Shown in pieces: positions 3,071 through 17,478 of a stretch of 64,000 nucleotides of DNA. This DNA is from Monoglobus pectinilyticus. GTDB taxonomy: Bacteria > Bacillota > Clostridia > Monoglobales > Monoglobaceae. Below the pieces are notes generated by a model, which was not told the DNA's origin, made no database searches, and saw only the letters and a list, made by a program, of their open reading frames with translations. The stretch lies in assembly GCF_002874775.1 (NCBI RefSeq), contig NZ_CP020991.1, positions 372,001-436,000 of the forward strand, given 5' to 3'. The translations under genes and the position numbers were made by a program. Position 1 is the first letter of the stretch. Each line of letters starts with the position of its first letter.

Positions 3071-3619
3071 TTAACCAAAATATCTCTTTAAAAGTCCTTC
3101 AAAGCCGCAGCCGTGTCTTGCCTCGTCTTTTGCCATTTCATGTACAGTGTCATGTATAGCGTCATATCCTAACTCCTTGGCTAACTTAGCAAGTTCTAAC
3201 TTACCTGCGGTTGCACCGCACTCAGCATCCTTACGAAGTTCAAGATTTTTCTTTGTATCAGGATATACTACTTCACCTAATAATTCAGCAAACTTTGCTG
3301 CATGTTCTGCTTCCTCAAAAGCAGCTTGCTGATAAAAAGCTCCAATTTCAGGATATCCTTCACGGATTGCTTGTCTTGACATTGCAAGATACATTCCAAC
3401 TTCTGTACATTCACCTGTAAAGTTAGCCTGTAAACCTTCTATAACTCTAGAATCAACGTCCTTAGCAATACCTACAACATGCTCACATGCCCAGCTCATT
3501 TCTCCATTCGAAACCTGCTCTGTAAACTTCTCAGCCGGAGCACTACATTGCGGACATTTTTCAGGCGGCTGTTCTCCTTCATATATGTATCCGCATACTC
3601 CACAAACCCATTTTTTCAT
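3071..3619 (-). CDS. Reverse rubrerythrin (rubredoxin domain first)
   Basis: Non-haem diiron peroxidase that reduces hydrogen peroxide, taking electrons through rubredoxin-type iron, in the cytoplasm of anaerobes. The domain order is inverted relative to classical rubrerythrin: the rubredoxin-like CGVC...CPQC pair (Cys6, Cys9, Cys22, Cys25) comes first, then a ferritin-like four-helix bundle with diiron ligands visible in EEAEH and DEARH. It is 182 residues from the ATG at 3619, which has GGAGG 8 bases upstream; the frame stays open to a TTG that lies in the ribosome binding site itself. It begins 45 bases after perR with no terminator between, so the two are probably co-transcribed. In clostridia reverse rubrerythrins are well-known PerR targets. 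Confidence 0.93.
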
Positions 3620-3664
3620 AATAATTACCTCCAAAAAATTGATATATAAATTTTTATTTTTATC

Positions 3665-4048
3665 TTAATTATTTTCACTCAAACATTCATTACAAGTACC
3701 ATAAAAAAGAAGAGTATGATATTCTATATCACCATTAAAATGATTTTCAGCAATTCTGTCTATATTAAAATCATATTCTGTTTCTATATCAGAAATTCTA
3801 TGGCAGCGCCGACATACAAAATGATTATGCGGATTTGTGTTGCCGTCATAATGACTTTGGTCATAGCCAACATCTAGTTTCAAAATCTCTCCATTTTCGG
3901 ATAAAATATTTAAGTTTCTGTAAACAGTTCCAAGACTTATATTCGGGATTCTTTCACGAACCTTATCGTATATCCAATCTGCTGTTGGATGAGACGTTGT
4001 GGCACATAGTATTTCCAGTATAGCTTCTCTTTGTCTGCTTCGTTTCAT
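3665..4048 (-). CDS. perR: Fur-family peroxide regulator, PerR type
   Basis: Metal-dependent repressor of about 127 residues. An N-terminal winged helix (SRQREAILEILCATTSHPTADWIYDKV, then SLGTVYRNLNIL as recognition helix) is followed by a dimerisation domain with HYDGNTNPHNHFVCRRCHRI and the C-terminal CNEC; the two CxxC pairs make the structural zinc site. The downstream rubrerythrin supports PerR rather than Fur or Zur. The ATG at 4048 has GGAGG 7-8 bases upstream; reading back five codons reaches only a TTG inside that site. A symmetric element at 4073-4085 between its promoter and start suggests autoregulation. Confidence 0.9.
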   Translation of the reverse strand: MKRSRQREAILEILCATTSHPTADWIYDKVRERIPNISLGTVYRNLNILSENGEILKLDVGYDQSHYDGNTNPHNHFVCRRCHRISDIETEYDFNIDRIAENHFNGDIEYHTLLFYGTCNECLSENN

Positions 4049-4072
4049 AATTTGTACCTCCAAATCAGAAAT

Positions 4073-4085
4073 AGTAACTATTACT
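4073..4085. promoter_or_regulatory. Candidate operator in the perR leader
   Basis: AGTAA-CTA-TTACT is a perfect 5-3-5 inverted repeat. Its outline fits the 7-1-7 layout of Fur/PerR boxes, with the core TAAT-N-xTTA on the minus strand. It lies just downstream of the perR -10 box, where a bound repressor would block transcription. A 17-base stretch across it recurs at 7895-7911 (see findings). Confidence 0.5.
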
Positions 4086-4097
4086 GTTTACAAACAT

Positions 4098-4126
4098 ATA
4101 ATAACTCAAAGATTTTTATTTGTCAA
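4098..4126 (-). promoter_or_regulatory. Sigma-A promoter of the perR-rubrerythrin operon
   Basis: On the minus strand TTGACA (4121-4126), 17 bases, TATTAT (4098-4103). The remaining gap to 4393 is AT-rich, and I see no gene or clear structure in it. Confidence 0.8.
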
Positions 4127-4393
4127 GAGTTTTTTTAAAAAATTTATATTTTAAATTTTCAAAGTATAAAATGCAAATTAATAAAAACTAAAATAGTTGT
4201 CACTCTGATTAGAGAGTATCGAAAACAATTATCGATAAAGTTTATTTAATAATACTAAATGTAAGGTCTTTGTTTAATAAAGAATTTAAATAGTATAAAA
4301 ATGGATATAAGGTATTGCAATTTTTAGATTTATTTTTATTAAATATCTAGCCAAATTATATCTTACTAAATATAAATTTATATAATAATTTTC

Positions 4394-5068
4394 TTATTTA
4401 TCTACTATTATTGGGTCACGTGTTACAATTGAAAAAATATCTCTTACTTTTTCTGCAATATAAGTTGCTCCGGAATTTTCCAGTTCTTCTTTTGACCCAT
4501 ATCCAAACAATACTCCAATTGAATCAATATCAAATTTTTTTGCTCCTAATATATCATATTTTCTGTCTCCGACCATAACAATTAAAGACCTGTTTTCAAC
4601 ACCACACAAATCTAATGCGTCTGATATAACTTCTTCTTTTTTAGTTTTGCTGCCGTCCAAATTGGCTCCGGCTATAAATGAAAAATATTGAGCAATGTCA
4701 AAATATTTTAATATTCTTTCCGCAAATACTTTTGGTTTTGAAGTTGCAACTCCAAGACAAATACCACTGTTCTGTAAATCACACAATAACTCTTTTATAC
4801 CATCATATAATTTGTTTTCAAAAATACCCGTATCCTTATAATATTCCCTATAATACTCTACAGCTTTTTTAGCTTCTTCTTTAGAAAATCCAAAATATTT
4901 TTCATAAGATTCATGAAGCGGCGGACCAATAAACTTATATAATTCTGATCTATCCTTTATTTGAATATTATATTTTTTAAGCGAATAAATCACAGAATTT
5001 GTTATACCTTCGCCGGGATCGGTTAAAGTGCCGTCTAAATCAAACAACACTACGTCATAATTTTTCAT
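4394..5068 (-). CDS. HAD-family phosphatase, phosphoglycolate phosphatase-like
   Basis: A 224-residue haloacid-dehalogenase superfamily hydrolase. Motif I is DVVLFDLDGTLTDPGEGI near the N-terminus (nucleophile Asp in DLDGT), motif II the Ser/Thr in GVATSK, motif III a Lys in the KPKVF or KTKKE region, and motif IV GDRKYDILGAK. The helical cap between motifs I and II (about residues 15-85) is the C1 type of Gph/PpaX-like enzymes. Likely substrates are small phosphate esters; the true one cannot be read from sequence. GGAGG precedes the ATG by about 9 bases. It is transcribed like hxlR, about 50 bases downstream of it, and could be in the same transcript. Confidence 0.85.
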   Translation of the reverse strand: MKNYDVVLFDLDGTLTDPGEGITNSVIYSLKKYNIQIKDRSELYKFIGPPLHESYEKYFGFSKEEAKKAVEYYREYYKDTGIFENKLYDGIKELLCDLQNSGICLGVATSKPKVFAERILKYFDIAQYFSFIAGANLDGSKTKKEEVISDALDLCGVENRSLIVMVGDRKYDILGAKKFDIDSIGVLFGYGSKEELENSGATYIAEKVRDIFSIVTRDPIIVDK

Positions 5069-5119
5069 TTTTTAATTCCTCCAAAATATAAAAAGACCCA
5101 AAATATTTTATTATGTGAA

Positions 5120-5440
5120 CTATTGATTTGCCTTTTGGTAGGCTTTCCCCCATTCAACCATAGAATCTAATATTGGCTTCAAGCTATAGCCTGTCTCAGT
5201 CAAAGTATATTCAACCCTGGGAGGAACTTCAGCATACACTTTTCTAGTTAATAGCCCCGACTCTTCCATTGAACGCAAATTAGAAGTCAGCACCTTCTGA
5301 GAAATACTCCCAATAGACTTTTTTAACTCACCAAACCGTTTGGTTCCATCCATCAAATCTCTGATTATAAGCACCTTCCATCGGTCTGATATTAACATCA
5401 AAGTCGTTTCAACCGGACATGCCGGCAGTTCTCTTTTCAT
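5120..5440 (-). CDS. HxlR-family transcriptional regulator
   Basis: A 106-residue winged-helix repressor. The signature CPVETTLMLISDRWKVLIIRDL at the N-terminus is the HxlR domain, with the family's conserved Cys near residue 8, and the wing follows in PPRVEYTLTETGYSL. Members commonly sense electrophiles, aldehydes or redox change through that Cys and regulate a divergent oxidoreductase gene. The same arrangement is seen here: it is divergent from the flavin/ferredoxin-macrodomain-sirtuin operon starting at 5651. Probable operators lie in its own leader (5465-5483), at 5559-5578 and at 7901-7920. Confidence 0.92.
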   Translation of the reverse strand: MKRELPACPVETTLMLISDRWKVLIIRDLMDGTKRFGELKKSIGSISQKVLTSNLRSMEESGLLTRKVYAEVPPRVEYTLTETGYSLKPILDSMVEWGKAYQKANQ

Positions 5441-5464
5441 ATTATTTCATTCCTCTCAGCATAA

Positions 5465-5483
5465 TAGTATATATTTGAAACTA
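5465..5483. promoter_or_regulatory. Possible HxlR autoregulatory site
   Basis: TAGTAT...GAAACTA, an imperfect inverted repeat in the hxlR leader. Its right half GAAACTATA is identical over 9 bases to the right half of the operator at 5559-5578. It lies downstream of the hxlR -10 box. Confidence 0.4.
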
Positions 5484-5508
5484 TACATCAATAAGTAATC
5501 TATAATAC

Positions 5509-5537
5509 ATTATAAACACAAATTTTCAGTTTGTCAA
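5509..5537 (-). promoter_or_regulatory. Sigma-A promoter of hxlR
   Basis: On the minus strand TTGACA (5532-5537), 17 bases, TATAAT (5509-5514): a near-consensus promoter facing away from the operon at 5651. Confidence 0.85.
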
Positions 5538-5558
5538 CTTCACTATTTAATTGTTCTA

Positions 5559-5578
5559 TAGTTACCATAAAGAAACTA
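5559..5578. promoter_or_regulatory. Candidate HxlR operator, divergent operon side
   Basis: TAGTTAC-N6-GAAACTA, an inverted repeat with one mismatch. It sits 20 bases before the -35 box at 5599. The same 20-bp element occurs at the same distance from an equivalent promoter at 7901-7920. Confidence 0.55.
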
Positions 5579-5598
5579 TAAAACAAAAAAGTGCTTAC

Positions 5599-5627
5599 TT
5601 TACAAATATTAGTGTAAGTATTATGAT
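5599..5627 (+). promoter_or_regulatory. Promoter of the flavin/ferredoxin-macrodomain-sirtuin operon
   Basis: TTTACA (5599-5604), 17 bases, TATGAT (5622-5627), 23 bases before the start codon. Just upstream is AAAAAAGTGCTTAC, repeated with one change before the promoter at 7941. Confidence 0.75.
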
Positions 5628-5650
5628 TAAGTTATAAAGGAGGCAATCAT

Positions 5651-6271
5651 ATGGATATAACCTCTGTATTTAAACTTTTACAAGACGATATACATTCTGT
5701 TGTTTTTGCTACAATAAACGAATTCGGGCGTCCCGAAACACGAGTGACAGATATAATGCTTTGCGACGAAAATAGTATATATTTTATTACTGCAAGAGGA
5801 AAAAATTTTTATGAACAATTGATTGATAATAAATATGTCTCTCTGACAGGTTTCAAAGGAAACAGTACGATTTCCTCTATCGCAGTCTCTGTCCGAGGTA
5901 ATGTCAAAGATATTGGAGCTGAACTATTGAATGAAGTATTTGAAAAAAATCCTTACATGAACACCATATATCCTACTATTGAAAGCAGAGCAGCACTAAC
6001 CGTATTTCAAATTTATAAAGGTACTGGTGAGTATTTTAATTTATCCAAACGTCCTATAGAACGATACACCTTTTCTTTTGGAGACGCTGAACTTACTTGG
6101 AATGGTTATTTTATTAACGATAAATGTATACACTGCTTTCAATGTCTCAGTGTATGCCCGCAAAGCTGCATTAATATAAATGAAAAGTCAGCTTATATAA
6201 GACAAGAAAATTGTCTTCACTGTGGAAATTGCTTTGATATCTGTCCAGCTAGCGCTATAGAAAGAAGATGA
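5651..6271 (+). CDS. PNPOx-fold flavin protein fused to a 2[4Fe-4S] ferredoxin domain
   Basis: Putative flavin-dependent oxidoreductase of 206 residues. Residues 1-130 resemble the pyridoxamine-5'-phosphate oxidase (FMN-binding split barrel) family: VVFATINEFGRPETRVTDIMLC, then YFITARGKNFYEQL and YVSLTGF. Residues 155-206 are a bacterial ferredoxin domain with Cys159, Cys162, Cys165, Cys169 and Cys188, Cys191, Cys194, Cys198, enough for two [4Fe-4S] clusters. Such fusions can pass electrons between FMN and ferredoxin partners; the substrate is unknown. AAAGGAGG lies about 8 bases before ATG. First gene of a three-gene operon, ending 4 bases before the macrodomain gene, and divergent from hxlR. 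It could be the target or the redox partner of the ADP-ribosylation pair, which is inference. Confidence 0.85.
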   Translation: MDITSVFKLLQDDIHSVVFATINEFGRPETRVTDIMLCDENSIYFITARGKNFYEQLIDNKYVSLTGFKGNSTISSIAVSVRGNVKDIGAELLNEVFEKNPYMNTIYPTIESRAALTVFQIYKGTGEYFNLSKRPIERYTFSFGDAELTWNGYFINDKCIHCFQCLSVCPQSCININEKSAYIRQENCLHCGNCFDICPASAIERR

Positions 6272-6275
6272 TAAA

Positions 6276-7052
6276 ATGGCTCAAGAAGAACGTTTAAAAT
6301 ACTTGATAAATTATTTATTAAACGAACAACCTGAATATTCAAATATAAATATACCTGAAAGCTTAGAAGACAAAAAACAGCTTTTGCGTTCACTTATGAA
6401 CGTCAGACCACCTTCTGATATTAGTCAGGAATTTTTATTGGTTCAAAATCAATATTTATCACAGGAAATTATTAAAAAAGGAATTACTAATGTGAATGAC
6501 CTGACTCCGATAAAAGAAAAGATTTATTTGTGGCAAGGAGATATTACAACATTAAGATGCGATGCAATAGTAAGCGCGGCAAATAACAGATTGCTTGGTT
6601 GTTTTGTTCCATGTCATGAATGTATTGATAACGCTATACATACATATGCTGGAATACAGCTCAGATTAGCATGCGATAAAATTATGAAGTCTAAAAATTC
6701 TTTTGCCGGAACCGGCAGTGCGGAAATAACTCAGGCATATAACCTGCCGTCTGATTATATCATACACACTGTAGGCCCTATTATTAATTCAAAGTTGACA
6801 CAGAATGACTGTTTACTCCTTAAATTATGCTATCAATCCTGTCTCAATGCTGCAGAGAAAAACAATCTCAAATCAATAGCTTTTTGTTGCATTTCCACAG
6901 GTGAATATCACTTTCCAAATCAAAGGGCTGCTGAAATTGCAGTAAAAACCGTATCCGAATTCATTCAATATTCAAACATAGAAAGGGTGATTTTTAATGT
7001 TTTTAAGGACAAAGACTATGAAATCTACCGAAAATTACTTCAAACAAATTGA
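6276..7052 (+). CDS. Zinc-dependent macrodomain protein (protein ADP-ribose hydrolase)
   Basis: Predicted to remove ADP-ribose from protein. It has 258 residues, with a helical N-terminal region (about 1-85) and a macrodomain beginning YLWQGDITTLRCDAIVSAANN. The loop GCFVPCHECIDNAIHTYAG (Cys109, Cys113, His114, Cys116) is the mark of the zinc-containing macrodomain class found beside SirTM sirtuins in staphylococci and streptococci; GTGSAEITQAYNLPSDYIIHTVGP and STGEYHFPNQRAAEIA complete the ADP-ribose pocket. Translation is probably coupled to the gene before it (TGA and ATG 4 bases apart). Its 3' end overlaps the sirtuin start by 35 bases. Family and neighbourhood support the role strongly; activity is not shown by sequence. 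Confidence 0.93.
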   Translation: MAQEERLKYLINYLLNEQPEYSNINIPESLEDKKQLLRSLMNVRPPSDISQEFLLVQNQYLSQEIIKKGITNVNDLTPIKEKIYLWQGDITTLRCDAIVSAANNRLLGCFVPCHECIDNAIHTYAGIQLRLACDKIMKSKNSFAGTGSAEITQAYNLPSDYIIHTVGPIINSKLTQNDCLLLKLCYQSCLNAAEKNNLKSIAFCCISTGEYHFPNQRAAEIAVKTVSEFIQYSNIERVIFNVFKDKDYEIYRKLLQTN

Positions 7053-7872
7053 ACGTTTAAAAAATGTTTTAGACATTTCTGACGCTGTTATTATTGGCGC
7101 CGGCGCTGGGCTTTCAACATCTGCCGGTTTTACTTATTCCGGCGAGCGGTTTGATAAATATTTTTCAGACTTTAAGAATAAATATGGTTTTACAGACATG
7201 TATTACGGTGGATTTTATCCTTATAAATCACCCGAAGAATATTGGGCATATTGGAGCAGATATGTTTACATCAACCGTTATGAGCCTGCAAAATCAACCG
7301 TGTATACCGATTTGCTTGAGCTTATTAAAGAAAAAGACTATTTCGTCATCACTACTAATGTTGACCATCAATTTCAAAAATCAGGATTTGATAAACACAG
7401 ATTGTTTTATACGCAAGGTGATTATGGATTATTTCAATGCTCGGTGCCTTGTCATAATAAAACTTATAATAATGAAGATATAATAAAACAAATGATGAAA
7501 GAACAGAAAAATATGCGCATACCAACAGATTTAATCCCTTATTGCCCAAAATGCGGGAAGCCAATGACGATGAATTTGAGGTCTGATAATAGATTTGTTG
7601 AAGATGATGGATGGCATATTGCAGCAGAAAGATATTCAAATTTCATTCGCCGTCATAAAAATATGAAAGTATTATTCTTTGAGCTTGGCATAGGTGAAAA
7701 TACTCCTGTTATTATCAAATATACATTTTGGAATATGACATATGAAAACCCAAATGCTGTATACGCATGCGTAAATTTAAAAAATTACATATATCCTAAC
7801 GAAATAAAAAAACAGTCCATTTGTATAAATTCAGATATACGCAAAGTAATTTTAGACTTAAAACACTGTTAG
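7018..7872 (+). CDS. Class M sirtuin (SirTM), protein ADP-ribosyltransferase
   Basis: NAD-dependent enzyme of the SirTM class, members of which mono-ADP-ribosylate proteins rather than deacetylate them. About 284 residues. The nucleotide-binding loop is GAGAGLSTSAGFTYSG instead of the GxxxSxxxGIPDFR of deacylases; TTNVDHQF replaces TQNID, and a Gln in TQGD stands where deacylases have the catalytic HG. A zinc ribbon is formed by Cys141, Cys145, Cys176 and Cys179. The ATG at 7018 is preferred (AAGGA 8 bases upstream, about 30 residues before the GAGAG loop, as in the family); an in-frame ATG at 6997 with AAGGGTG upstream would add seven residues. It overlaps the macrodomain gene, so writer and eraser are made together. 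Confidence 0.92.
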   Translation: MKSTENYFKQIERLKNVLDISDAVIIGAGAGLSTSAGFTYSGERFDKYFSDFKNKYGFTDMYYGGFYPYKSPEEYWAYWSRYVYINRYEPAKSTVYTDLLELIKEKDYFVITTNVDHQFQKSGFDKHRLFYTQGDYGLFQCSVPCHNKTYNNEDIIKQMMKEQKNMRIPTDLIPYCPKCGKPMTMNLRSDNRFVEDDGWHIAAERYSNFIRRHKNMKVLFFELGIGENTPVIIKYTFWNMTYENPNAVYACVNLKNYIYPNEIKKQSICINSDIRKVILDLKHC

Positions 7873-7895
7873 AAATACAACATTTACGTTATACC

Positions 7896-7920
7896 AGTAA
7901 TAGTTACTATTAGGTAACTA
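7896..7920. promoter_or_regulatory. Composite operator before the NAD(P)-binding protein gene
   Basis: TAGTTAC-N6-GTAACTA (7901-7920) is a perfect 7-bp inverted repeat matching the candidate HxlR operator at 5559-5578. Overlapping it, AGTAA-TAG-TTACT (7896-7908) is identical in reverse to the element in the perR leader. Two regulators, or one regulator with two overlapping sites, could act here. Confidence 0.5.
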
Positions 7921-7940
7921 CAGCACAAAAAAGTGTTTAC

Positions 7941-7969
7941 TTTACAAAATACATTTATGGCAATATAAT
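7941..7969 (+). promoter_or_regulatory. Promoter of the NAD(P)-binding protein gene
   Basis: TTTACA (7941-7946), 17 bases, TATAAT (7964-7969). The stretch AAAAAAGTGTTTACTTTACA repeats the one at 5585-5604 with one change. Confidence 0.8.
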
Positions 7970-8016
7970 GAAACCGGTTTTAAAACTAAATATTAAAATA
8001 GAAAGGATTGTAATTT

Positions 8017-8646
8017 ATGAAAATCGCAGTAGTATGCGCAAATGGAAAAGTTGGAAAATTAGTTGTAAAGGAAGCAATGAAAAGAGGACTTGACGTAACA
8101 GCCATAGTTAGAGGAGAAAATAAATCACTGGCTGAGCACACAATCATTAAAGATCTTTTTGATCTTAAGAAATCGGATTTAGATAGTTTTGATACAGTAG
8201 TAGACGCTTTTGGAACATGGAATCCAGAAAGCCTGACGCAACATAGTACATCATTAAAAAAGCTATGCGATCTTTTATCAGGGACTAACAAGAGATTAAT
8301 AGTAGTCGGCGGCGCCGGAAGTTTATATGTTAATCCTGAACACACATTGCAGCTGATGGATACTCCGGATTTTCCTGATATGTTTAAACCTCTTGCATCT
8401 AATATGGGAAAAGCGTTAGAAGAACTTCGTTCGCGAGATGACGTGCGCTGGACATATATTAGTCCAGCCGGTGATTTCAGGGCAGATGGTGAGAAATGCG
8501 GAAAATACATATTAGGCGGTGAAGAGCTAACATTAAATTCAAACGGTGAAAGTATAATAAGTTACGCCGATTATGCTGCCGCACTTGTTGATGAAATAAT
8601 AAATGGTAATCACATAAATGAGCGCATAAGTGTTGTTAGAGCATAA
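8017..8646 (+). CDS. NAD(P)-binding Rossmann-fold protein (YwnB/NmrA-like)
   Basis: A 209-residue atypical short-chain dehydrogenase. The N-terminus MKIAVVCANGKVGKLVVKEAMKRG holds a variant dinucleotide-binding loop (CANGKVG in place of GATGxxG); VVDAFGTWN, RLIVVGGAGSLYV and WTYISPAGDF are the later strands and loops of this family. No YxxxK catalytic pair is obvious, so it may be a redox sensor or a reductase of the NAD(P)H-binding type often controlled by HxlR regulators. AAAGGA precedes the ATG. Its promoter region copies that of the operon at 5651, which argues for the same regulator. Confidence 0.88.
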   Translation: MKIAVVCANGKVGKLVVKEAMKRGLDVTAIVRGENKSLAEHTIIKDLFDLKKSDLDSFDTVVDAFGTWNPESLTQHSTSLKKLCDLLSGTNKRLIVVGGAGSLYVNPEHTLQLMDTPDFPDMFKPLASNMGKALEELRSRDDVRWTYISPAGDFRADGEKCGKYILGGEELTLNSNGESIISYADYAAALVDEIINGNHINERISVVRA

Positions 8647-8863: not shown

Positions 8864-9481
8864 ATGTCAAGTTTATTTAAGTCAACTTTTAACAGCAGGT
8901 TTCTCAACGGAGATAATATTCCTTACCACAGATATATTCGCAGTGATGTCCCTAATAATATCAGCAAAGACGAAATAGATTGGTTATATAAAAATAATTT
9001 TACAACAATCATTGATTTGCGCTCTGATTGGGAACACGAGCATGAATCTGTCCCTCTTGAAATTGACAACAGATTTATATACCTTCACAAACCCGTTACA
9101 ATAGACGGTTTAGTTGATATAGATAATATTAATGGTATAGTTCCTAAAACTGTTGCTGATGTATCAAAATCGTATATTTTGATGGCTGACAAAAATATGA
9201 AAAATATAATCAATACAATTTTAAATGCTAAAACAAATGTTTTATATTTTTGCAGCGCAGGCAAAGACCGAACAGGCGTTGTTTCAGCTATATTAATGCT
9301 GATATACAAAGAAAGCCGAAACAGTATCATAGATGATTATATGAAATCTTTAGATAATATCAAAGTTATATTTGAGAAATATTCTAAAGAATTCCCCGAT
9401 ATTAATACTGATATTATATATCCTAAAAGAGAATTTATAGAATCATTTTTGGATAATGTAAATCTTAATAATATAATTTAA
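8864..9481 (+). CDS. Tyrosine-protein phosphatase, dual-specificity-like
   Basis: A 205-residue cytoplasmic phosphatase of the bacterial Tyr/Ser (PF13350-like) type. The phosphate loop CSAGKDRTG gives nucleophile Cys130 and Arg136 of the CX5R motif. The N-terminal NFTTIIDLRSDWEHE is the usual first strand (TIIDLR) of this family. Substrates may be phosphotyrosine, phosphoinositide or small phosphate esters. GAGGAG is about 8 bases before the ATG. It has its own promoter and no obvious partner. Confidence 0.88.
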   Translation: MSSLFKSTFNSRFLNGDNIPYHRYIRSDVPNNISKDEIDWLYKNNFTTIIDLRSDWEHEHESVPLEIDNRFIYLHKPVTIDGLVDIDNINGIVPKTVADVSKSYILMADKNMKNIINTILNAKTNVLYFCSAGKDRTGVVSAILMLIYKESRNSIIDDYMKSLDNIKVIFEKYSKEFPDINTDIIYPKREFIESFLDNVNLNNII

Positions 9482-9593: not shown

Positions 9594-10553
9594 ATGAAAC
9601 GTTTAGTACCACTTGAACCACAAGCTGAAAAAGTATGCAACGAAGCCTCAAAGCCGCCTCTTATATTTCAGCTTCCGCCTGAAAAAGGCCGTGAAGTGCT
9701 GGAAAAAATGCAAGACAGCCCAGTATACAAATATCCGGCGGAAATTAAAAGACTACAATTTGAATCTGATAACTGGGGAACTTTTAAAATATATTTTGTT
9801 ATTCCAAGCAACTTACAGGGAATCCCAAGCGTTATCTACTATATACATGGGGCTGGATGGGTATTTGGTAGTTTTCATACACATGAAAAGCTGGTTCGGG
9901 AACTTGCAGCAAGAACCAATTCAATTCTAGTCTTTCCTGAATATAGTCTTTCCCCTGAAGTTAAGTATCCTACTGCTATCGAACAATGTTATGAAGCCTT
10001 ATGCTGTATTCCCGAACTGCTGAAACAAGAAAGTATTTCAGCTGATTTAAGTAAACTCACTGTGGCGGGCGACAGCGTCGGCGGTAATATGGCAACGGTA
10101 ATGACTATAATGGCAAAATATCGAAACGGACCATATATAAATAAACAGCTTTTATACTATCCTGTTACCAACGCATGCTTTTCAACAGACTCTTACTGCG
10201 CCTTTGCTGTAAATTATTATCTATATCGAGCAGGAATGATGTGGTTTTGGAACCAATATACAAGCAATCTTTTAGAAAGAACACAAATTACTGCCTCTCC
10301 TCTTAAGAGTTCGCTTAATGAATTAAAGAATTTACCGCCAGCGATGATTTTAAACGGTGAGGCAGACGTTCTGCGAGATGATGGAGAATCTTATGCGCGA
10401 CGTCTTAGAAAAGCCGGTGTAGATGTAACTGCAGTAAGATTTCAGGCAATTATTCATGATTTTGTTATGCTTAATGCTTTAGACCAAACTAAAGCATGCC
10501 GCGCAGCTATGGATCTCTCGACCGAGTGGATAAAAAAGAAAAATGCCGAATAA
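9594..10553 (+). CDS. Alpha/beta hydrolase, hormone-sensitive-lipase-type esterase
   Basis: A 319-residue carboxylesterase of the HSL family (family IV). The oxyanion motif reads YIHGAGWVFGS in place of the usual HGGG. The nucleophile Ser160 lies in GDSVGG, the acid Asp in GEADVLRDDG and the base His in IIHDFVM, all in the expected order. No signal peptide, so it acts inside the cell on short acyl esters. AAAGGAGA is about 9 bases before the ATG. It is followed by more than 900 bases without a recognisable gene. Confidence 0.88.
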   Translation: MKRLVPLEPQAEKVCNEASKPPLIFQLPPEKGREVLEKMQDSPVYKYPAEIKRLQFESDNWGTFKIYFVIPSNLQGIPSVIYYIHGAGWVFGSFHTHEKLVRELAARTNSILVFPEYSLSPEVKYPTAIEQCYEALCCIPELLKQESISADLSKLTVAGDSVGGNMATVMTIMAKYRNGPYINKQLLYYPVTNACFSTDSYCAFAVNYYLYRAGMMWFWNQYTSNLLERTQITASPLKSSLNELKNLPPAMILNGEADVLRDDGESYARRLRKAGVDVTAVRFQAIIHDFVMLNALDQTKACRAAMDLSTEWIKKKNAE

Positions 10554-17450: not shown

Positions 17451-17478
17451 AACGCTTTCTTGTTTTTAAGAAAGCGTT
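17451..17478 (-). terminator. Rho-independent terminator of the trmFO-topA-dprA run
   Basis: AACGCTTTCTT (17451-17461) / AAGAAAGCGTT (17468-17478), 6-base loop. Reading the minus strand, it is followed by a T-rich tail ending in TTTTGTTTGG. It lies 32 bases past the trmFO stop. Confidence 0.85.

Follow-up and report, generated by a model that had tools for sequence, protein, structure and literature searches.

Upon which protein do a class M sirtuin (SirTM) and its zinc macrodomain (Zn-Macro) act when the operon encoding them holds no lipoylated carrier? The question is raised by a locus of Monoglobus pectinilyticus, located in a stretch of 64,000 nucleotides (assembly GCF_002874775.1, contig NZ_CP020991.1, positions 372,001 to 436,000; hereafter the window) of a 2.76-Mb single-contig genome. 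Lone, extended and fused SirTM/Zn-Macro systems have been described (Rack 2015, PMC4518038; Ariza 2024, PMC11490716). As of 2024, GcvH-L was the only known SirTM target, those of the other pairs being termed “elusive” (PMC11490716). In the window, SirTM and Zn-Macro are preceded by a PNPOx-like flavin domain fused to a ferredoxin (PNPOx-ferredoxin) and stand divergent from a gene encoding an HxlR-family regulator. The reading that we tentatively prefer, while granting it somewhat less than an even chance, is that of a thiol- and electrophile-stress operon that carries within it a switch, the reversible ADP-ribosylation of a redox component, most simply the PNPOx-ferredoxin. By analogy with the co-encoded GcvH-L, this protein would be the simplest candidate for the target, and a role as redox partner, with the target elsewhere, is nearly as likely.

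A first-pass annotation of the window, made from the sequence alone, had described tightly packed genes for PNPOx-2[4Fe-4S], Zn-macrodomain and class M sirtuin, divergent from hxlR and followed by an NAD(P)-binding gene. The open reading frames (ORFs) and the Pfam and NCBIfam matches bear out this layout, the two databases concurring on all genes save the NAD(P)-binding protein, which has no NCBIfam match. The hxlR gene (5120..5440, minus strand; Pfam HxlR, 1.3e-34) encodes an HxlR/DUF24-family regulator with a Cys near its N-terminus in a CPVE motif. On the plus strand, the first gene of the operon (5651..6271; Pfam PNPOx_N, 9.5e-9, and 4Fe-4S domains) encodes a PNPOx-like flavin domain fused to a 2[4Fe-4S] ferredoxin, of the ACGX-free clade described below. 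The Zn-Macro gene (6276..7052; Pfam Macro, 7.8e-35) starts 4 bases past the stop of the PNPOx-ferredoxin gene and is itself overlapped over 56 nts by the SirTM gene (6997..7872; Pfam SIR2, 2.9e-5) if the latter starts from the ATG at 6997, a second ATG being present at 7018. Downstream, an NAD(P)H-binding protein (NAD_binding_10 or NmrA-like; 8017..8646, plus strand; Pfam, 5.9e-12) is predicted to belong to the same regulon. All five genes are ORFs with no visible damage.

The signature residues of both enzyme classes are present. The window sirtuin matches the SirTM structure 5a3a across residues 15-285 (E 1.6e-79) and its motif TQGDYG contains the QG of class M where other sirtuins have HG. 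QG was found in all 146 SirTM ORFs that score above 300 bits, a count with duplicate loci in it; the pattern recognised 140, and the 6 exceptions were seen to read QG as well. The macrodomain passes the NCBIfam model NF003163, “protein-ADP-ribose hydrolase”, with 356 bits for a cut-off of 272, and its best solved chains are 8rsi (4.4e-86), 5kiv and 8rsl. We take 8rsi and 8rsl to be from the Zn-Macro structure series of Ariza 2024. The zinc loop CFVPCHEC conforms to Cx4HxC, which is kept in 135 out of 135 macrodomains above 250 bits, and the Asp/His dyad lies in DNAIH. Because the alignment with 8rsi begins at residue 3, the N-terminal three-helix extension also appears to be present in the sequence. 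SirTM is predicted to be a protein ADP-ribosyltransferase and Zn-Macro a protein-ADP-ribose hydrolase. Their association was followed in two samples, namely an even draw of 69 SirTM loci, spread over 66 genomes in 44 genera and 25 families and including the window, and 80 named loci, the best 80 of at least 557 confirmed candidates, from Clostridia or unplaced Bacillota. Neighbourhoods were scored with custom profiles and score cut-offs, a gene past a contig end being counted as absent. A macrodomain was found in the neighbourhood of SirTM in 64 of the evenly drawn and 76 of the named loci. The window genome also holds a second sirtuin-like ORF (L027, G000:C1:1504475-1504825, 254 aa; weak SirTM match, 6e-4), presumably an ordinary sirtuin.

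The PNPOx-ferredoxin is predicted, from profile matches to its fold, to bind a flavin and two iron-sulfur clusters. PNPOx_N and Fer4 were found in 29 out of 29 family members scanned with Pfam, two CxxCxxCxxxC motifs in 59 out of 59 ORFs, and the flavin domain matches PDB 2hhz (4.4e-25). A profile built from 30 SirTM-linked members and searched in 391 Clostridia genomes delimited a family of 32 genes in 30 genomes above 200 bits, the next scores being 160, 99 and 87 bits. The first-pass annotation had proposed to count the co-occurrence of this gene with SirTM, naming the lack of a conserved linkage in relatives as a finding that would speak against it, and the linkage does recur: SirTM (E <=1e-30) is present in 66 of the 391 genomes and in 29 of the 30 with a PNPOx-ferredoxin (Fisher 2e-24; by genus, 19/19), and 25 of the 32 PNPOx-ferredoxin genes adjoin it. 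In the locus samples, a PNPOx-ferredoxin lies within 5.5 kb of SirTM in 25 of the evenly drawn loci (16 genera) and 29 of the named loci, and it is directly upstream of the macrodomain gene in 37 of the 51 distinct loci having it.

The absence of the carrier and of its ligase, noted at first for the 64 kb, extends to the whole genome according to profile searches. In the genome, LplA-B_cat (PF21948) has no match, the only match to PF03099 is a BirA-type protein (HTH_11, BPL and BPL_C) and not a lipoate ligase, and GCV_H is matched once, with 23 bits, by a protein that scores 80 bits as a Biotin_lipoyl carrier and is encoded next to an OAD_beta decarboxylase subunit, no true GcvH being found. 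On these searches, the idea that the genome encodes a lipoate system at another site was rejected, and a GcvH-L/LplA2 pair, which the first-pass annotation had named as the observation that would speak against its proposal, was not found in the genome. A Pfam search limited to the operon and its nearest flanking genes identified no OYE or LLM oxidoreductases. The stand-alone SirTM/Zn-Macro module is real in the window, whereas its novelty as such does not stand since lone pairs have already been published (Rack 2015; Ariza 2024). Elsewhere, a true GcvH (>100 bits) is present in 5 of the 66 SirTM-bearing Clostridia genomes and lies beside SirTM only in G416, 1.1 kb away. In this locus (L165, approximately 3655-5960), a GcvH-like domain within a larger protein stands amid small cysteine-bearing proteins directly upstream of SirTM (6188), and a distant PNPOx-ferredoxin (87 bits) lies 3.4 kb downstream, possibly representing another operon type.

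The regulator probably links the operon to thiol chemistry. The best NCBIfam match of the window HxlR is the redox regulator RrpB, at 139 bits and thus under the cut-off of 175. A 21-base element, AAAAAGTGNTTACTTTACAAA, occurs exactly in two places, before the operon at 5586..5606 (AAAAAGTGCTTACTTTACAAA, plus strand) and before the NAD(P)-binding gene at 7928..7948 (AAAAAGTGTTTACTTTACAAA, plus strand), so that the promoter copy reported by the first-pass annotation is confirmed; both copies, located by exact-match search, are predicted to be HxlR-type operator/promoter elements. Shuffles of the window yielded 0.02 matches with up to 3 mismatches. No further exact copy is present in the 2.76-Mb genome, in which three more sites have 3 mismatches, compared to 1 for a reversed-pattern control. 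A match with 3 mismatches at position 17469 of the window was taken as chance because no plus-strand ORF of at least 90 aa lies downstream up to 19500. Of the regions upstream of 70 hxlR genes, that of the window among them, 51 contain the core A[AG]GTGCNTACTT, for a shuffled mean of 0.03 (plain shuffling may have been substituted in a few of the shuffles); all 70 genes lie on the opposite strand no more than 5.5 kb from SirTM, duplicate loci accounting for 3, and several of the 19 regions without the core carry a visible near-variant. The N-terminal motif C[PT][IVLM], of the Cys-Pro type, is present in 62 of these 70 HxlRs. An HxlR is found near SirTM in 35/69 evenly drawn and 38/80 named loci, leaving about half without, and a homologue of the NAD(P)-binding gene lies within 5.5 kb in 8/69 and 14/80, respectively. 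In B. subtilis, the DUF24 regulators HypR, YodB and CatR of the HxlR family use an N-terminal Cys to sense HOCl, quinones and diamide, and they target azoreductase, nitroreductase and flavin disulfide reductase (PMC6943732). The conserved operator core, the N-terminal Cys motif and this precedent together give sound grounds for predicting that the operon is probably under thiol- and electrophile-stress control via HxlR.

Many relatives carry a longer operon composed of hxlR, an ACGX-repeat peptide (e.g., MALSNLSDW...ACGAACGASDKP...), a radical S-adenosylmethionine (SAM)/SPASM enzyme, a nitroreductase, often a PNPOx-ferredoxin, then the macrodomain and SirTM. The radical SAM enzyme of locus L055 was identified as NCBIfam TIGR04340, rSAM_ACGX (597 bits, cut-off 400), a model made independently of the present work, and 4 of the 5 scanned peptides pass TIGR04341 (cut-off 28), the fifth reaching 27.9. 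Peptide and maturase occur together in 13/69 evenly drawn and 16/80 named SirTM loci. TIGR04340 is above cut-off in 16 of the 391 genomes and all 16 contain SirTM (Fisher 8e-14; 9/9 genera, 2e-7), while three weaker matches from one genus (285-308 bits) are in genomes without it. Out of 17 maturase genes, 13 lie within 4 kb of SirTM; among the remaining four, one is on contig C26 of G303, which ends soon after the fifth gene of the operon (L188), and the others are in G332, G351 and G366, which hold SirTM elsewhere in the genome. In a second sample of 70 genomes from one family (56 new), the maturase was found in 5 (3 new) and SirTM in 26, with 4 of the 5 coinciding; in the fifth, G447, which has no SirTM match, the contig breaks off within this operon, partway through the Zn-Macro gene.

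The maturase is present in 6 of the 8 sampled genomes of the same genus. In the window genome, no maturase is above the TIGR04340 cut-off (best 27.8 bits for a required 400), and a peptide scan confined to the 64-kb window found no ACGX peptide. In G005, a Monoglobus relative, the maturase has been lost through a deletion that leaves the nitroreductase gene fused with the beginning of the ACGX peptide (L118:7773-8630, minus strand), with PNPOx-ferredoxin, macrodomain and SirTM remaining open, an assembly error being possible. This single locus of the even sample with an ACGX match and no maturase was considered a deletion product.

The two kinds of operon are largely separated by the phylogeny of the PNPOx-ferredoxin. 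In its tree, from which 4 duplicate loci were dropped, one clade has full support and 24 rows, 21 of them with ACGX, the exceptions being L161, the contig-edge locus L089 and the deletion locus L118; L134 and L066 stand beside this clade. A set of 30 rows, including the window and with 29 in a strongly supported clade, contains none. In a joint macro-SirTM tree (121 of 145 loci, those with short or weak SirTM or macrodomain being dropped; short search, 42 of 118 branches left open), the window pair falls outside the clade of the seven other sampled same-genus pairs, which suggests that it was probably exchanged and not trimmed from an ACGX operon. The partner changes many times along this tree, implying that the operon is not one frozen ancestral block. 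Instead, the SirTM/Zn-Macro pair looks like a portable cassette, repeatedly joined to both partners, and such repeated joining supports a real functional link.

Other neighbours were observed around the pair. DUF1848 (PF08902) is near SirTM in 4/69 evenly drawn and 10/80 named loci (L078, L081, L139, L140, L145 and others) and, in 8 of the 145 distinct loci, directly precedes Zn-Macro. By eye, an HD-domain-like ORF stands between PNPOx-ferredoxin and macrodomain in L120, L121 and L122 from Monoglobus relatives, small cupin-like proteins replace the flavoprotein directly upstream of the SirTM operon in L133, L155, L070 and L087, and a second type of radical SAM protein (NPYVGCTHACKYCYA motif) directly precedes the macrodomain in L089 and L148. 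A neighbour cluster labelled MBL by its look lost this label, having no Pfam match.

These observations can be assembled into a model. Oxidants or electrophiles would modify the HxlR cysteine and inactivate the regulator, thereby inducing the operon. Judging from its domains, the PNPOx-ferredoxin would shuttle electrons between flavin and iron-sulfur clusters. Using NAD+, SirTM may ADP-ribosylate the redox component and Zn-Macro may remove the mark, as reported for their relatives. We propose that, through such a reversible mark, NAD+ level and redox stress jointly set the activity of this component. In the sister operons, the radical SAM-modified, Cys-rich ACGX peptide and the nitroreductase would occupy in the same circuit the place of the lipoyl-GcvH-L and OYE/LLM flavoenzymes of staphylococci and streptococci. 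By analogy, the ACGX operons would be nearer still to the lipoyl-GcvH-L system, as they combine a small thiol-rich carrier with its own maturase, flavoenzymes, a writer and an eraser. The published GcvH-L type, the PNPOx-ferredoxin type and the ACGX type all join SirTM/Zn-Macro with flavin enzymes. A cysteine-rich peptide would also suit the reported ability of Zn-Macros to cleave S-linked Cys-ADP-ribose (PMC11490716). Hence, the pair of Clostridia might act on, or control the making of, the radical SAM-modified ACGX peptide as the thiol carrier standing in for lipoyl-GcvH-L, with the PNPOx-ferredoxin as substrate where the peptide is missing; we consider this more specific proposal rather unlikely.

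Several observations weigh against the switch acting on the PNPOx-ferredoxin. On the macro-SirTM tree, ACGX (26 rows) requires at least 17 changes, compared to a mean of 23.9 and a minimum of 19 in 200 shuffles, so that the partner is followed weakly, and PNPOx-ferredoxin without ACGX (28 rows) requires at least 21, which is within the shuffled range (mean 25.6, minimum 20); both counts are inflated by contig-edge loci scored as partnerless and by weak branches. Such weak tracking argues against a narrowly co-evolved, dedicated target, for which specialised lineages would be expected. Seven of the 32 PNPOx-ferredoxin genes lie away from SirTM (in G351, G360 and G192, and two each in G383 and G349), and once a PNPOx-ferredoxin without nearby SirTM stands beside an ACGX maturase (L149). 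The profile, made from SirTM-linked members, favours linked genes, so that the counts describe a delimited family and not all PNPOx-ferredoxins. In addition, the window macrodomain reads SAAN where the family has NAAN. Among the 69 evenly drawn loci, some of which are cut by contig ends, 44 have no PNPOx-ferredoxin within 5.5 kb, and 33 lack every redox partner that was scored, 23 of these lacking hxlR as well. The PNPOx-ferredoxin is not the sole partner of the pair, since ACGX peptide and radical SAM enzyme, nitroreductase, DUF1848 and others are involved in relatives. The 44 loci are also in line with the PNPOx-ferredoxin being a redox partner or electron donor and not the substrate, the target of SirTM/Zn-Macro being common to many Clostridia and encoded elsewhere, with the operon merely ensuring co-induction. 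This explanation, which we regard as a serious possibility without thinking it probable, is favoured by the swapping of the pair among PNPOx-ferredoxin, ACGX, DUF1848 and bare contexts with no clear partner-specific lineages, and by PNPOx-ferredoxin clades that track the ACGX maturase (21/24 versus 0/30 rows), as would be expected if the protein supplied electrons to a radical SAM enzyme. However, a mere redox partner is at odds with the presence of SirTM in 29 of the 30 genomes of the family, and a target encoded elsewhere departs from the staphylococcal and streptococcal case, in which the target is co-encoded (PMC4518038).

The remaining explanations carry less weight. HxlR-controlled detoxification genes and SirTM/Zn-Macro could be hitch-hiking, sharing a regulator without any biochemical link, as might be supposed from the varying sets in which genes of a detoxification kind recur (nitroreductases, NAD(P)-binding and SnoaL-like proteins). 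We find this improbable, because the co-occurrence survives separation, the 16 maturase genomes all having SirTM and three of them having it elsewhere in the genome, and because the window genes are tightly packed, with the 4-base gap and the 56-nt overlap. It has also to be considered whether the ACGX peptide or its maturase was the real target in the ancestor and still is in ACGX relatives, the window being a reduced descendant with an idle or retargeted SirTM pair. The frequency of peptide and maturase at SirTM loci (13/69 and 16/80), the invariable presence of SirTM in maturase genomes, the reported cleavage of S-linked Cys-ADP-ribose by Zn-Macros (PMC11490716) and the G005 deletion, which removes the maturase and leaves PNPOx-ferredoxin, macrodomain and SirTM, would all be consistent with such a history. 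Yet the window genome has no maturase above cut-off, its five genes are open and visibly undamaged, and its PNPOx-ferredoxin falls in the ACGX-free set with a macro-SirTM pair outside the same-genus clade, implying that the window is not a simple decay of an ACGX operon; reduction is thus very unlikely. Finally, the setting among detoxification-like genes could suggest that the substrate of SirTM is not a protein but a small molecule or NAD+ itself, in the service of detoxification or NAD control. This can scarcely be credited given the close match to 5a3a, of a class described as protein ADP-ribosyltransferases (PMC4518038), and a macrodomain belonging to the protein-ADP-ribose hydrolase family.

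The association of these genes narrows the question of the SirTM target to a few co-encoded candidates that can be expressed, namely the PNPOx-ferredoxin, to which relatives add the ACGX peptide with its maturase. The initial observation holds and is more general than the window alone revealed. As far as the literature searched shows, the HxlR-controlled PNPOx-ferredoxin context and the ACGX link are new, the lone SirTM/Zn-Macro pair itself being already known, and they render the target question testable. In the available main text of PMC11490716, ferredoxin, flavin, HxlR, pyridoxamine, radical SAM and nitroreductase have 0 occurrences, and in that of PMC4518038, ferredoxin, HxlR, pyridoxamine, nitroreductase and “radical” are not mentioned, with “flavin” appearing three times, in passages that, where seen, concern OYE/LLM. 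TIGR04340, TIGR04341, rSAM_ACGX, ACGX-repeat, and ACGX with radical SAM are not mentioned in the literature searched, outside which most subscription papers fall. Judged by titles and the starts of abstracts, this literature contains nothing related on a combination of flavo-ferredoxin, sirtuin and macrodomain or of macrodomain and radical SAM, and a search on ADP-ribosyl, ribosomally synthesized and post-translationally modified peptides (RiPPs), radical SAM and macrodomain gave no radical SAM among the matches listed. A RiPP family for which this literature yielded no paper is tied by genomic association to ADP-ribosylation and to a redox-type regulator. Should the pair indeed act on the ACGX peptide or control its making, the peptide would be, as far as the searched literature goes, the first RiPP linked to reversible ADP-ribosylation.

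In the wider surroundings of the operon, the minus strand at 3071-4063, past a HAD gene beside hxlR, encodes a Fur-family regulator, which looks PerR-like by eye, and a rubrerythrin that contains a rubredoxin-like domain; oxidative-stress genes are thus neighbours of the operon. On its other side, a tyrosine-phosphatase-family protein (Y_phosphatase3; 8864-9481, plus strand) and an Abhydrolase_3 esterase (9594-10553, plus strand) lie beyond the NAD(P)-binding gene in the same orientation, neither being preceded by an exact operator copy in a scan of the window. No tRNA or tmRNA genes were found in the 64-kb window.

Compared with known systems, the operon resembles the extended SirTM operon of Staphylococcaceae and Lactobacillales (GcvH-L, Zn-Macro, SirTM, LplA2, OYE and LLM) in the adjacency of SirTM and Zn-Macro, whose genes overlap in some cases, and in an association with flavin oxidoreductases and oxidative stress (PMC4518038, PMC11490716). 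It differs in that its genes include none for GcvH-L, LplA2, OYE or LLM, with PNPOx-2[4Fe-4S] and HxlR instead. In having no carrier or ligase, it is similar to the minimal or lone pairs from the source of MorMacro, Enterococcus faecalis and Treponema pedis (PMC11490716), for which the available main text names no partner of the PNPOx-ferredoxin/HxlR type. With the HypR, YodB and CatR regulons of B. subtilis it shares the HxlR fold, the N-terminal Cys and the control of flavin and NAD(P)H enzymes, a likeness seen at the level of the proteins, whereas the regulon members named in the available part of PMC6943732 do not include SirTM/Zn-Macro. It is distinct from the ACGX RiPP system (TIGR04340/TIGR04341), whose maturase is missing from the window genome and whose PNPOx-ferredoxin forms a separate clade, but in relatives that system shares its operon, its regulator and a homologue of the PNPOx-ferredoxin with SirTM/Zn-Macro.

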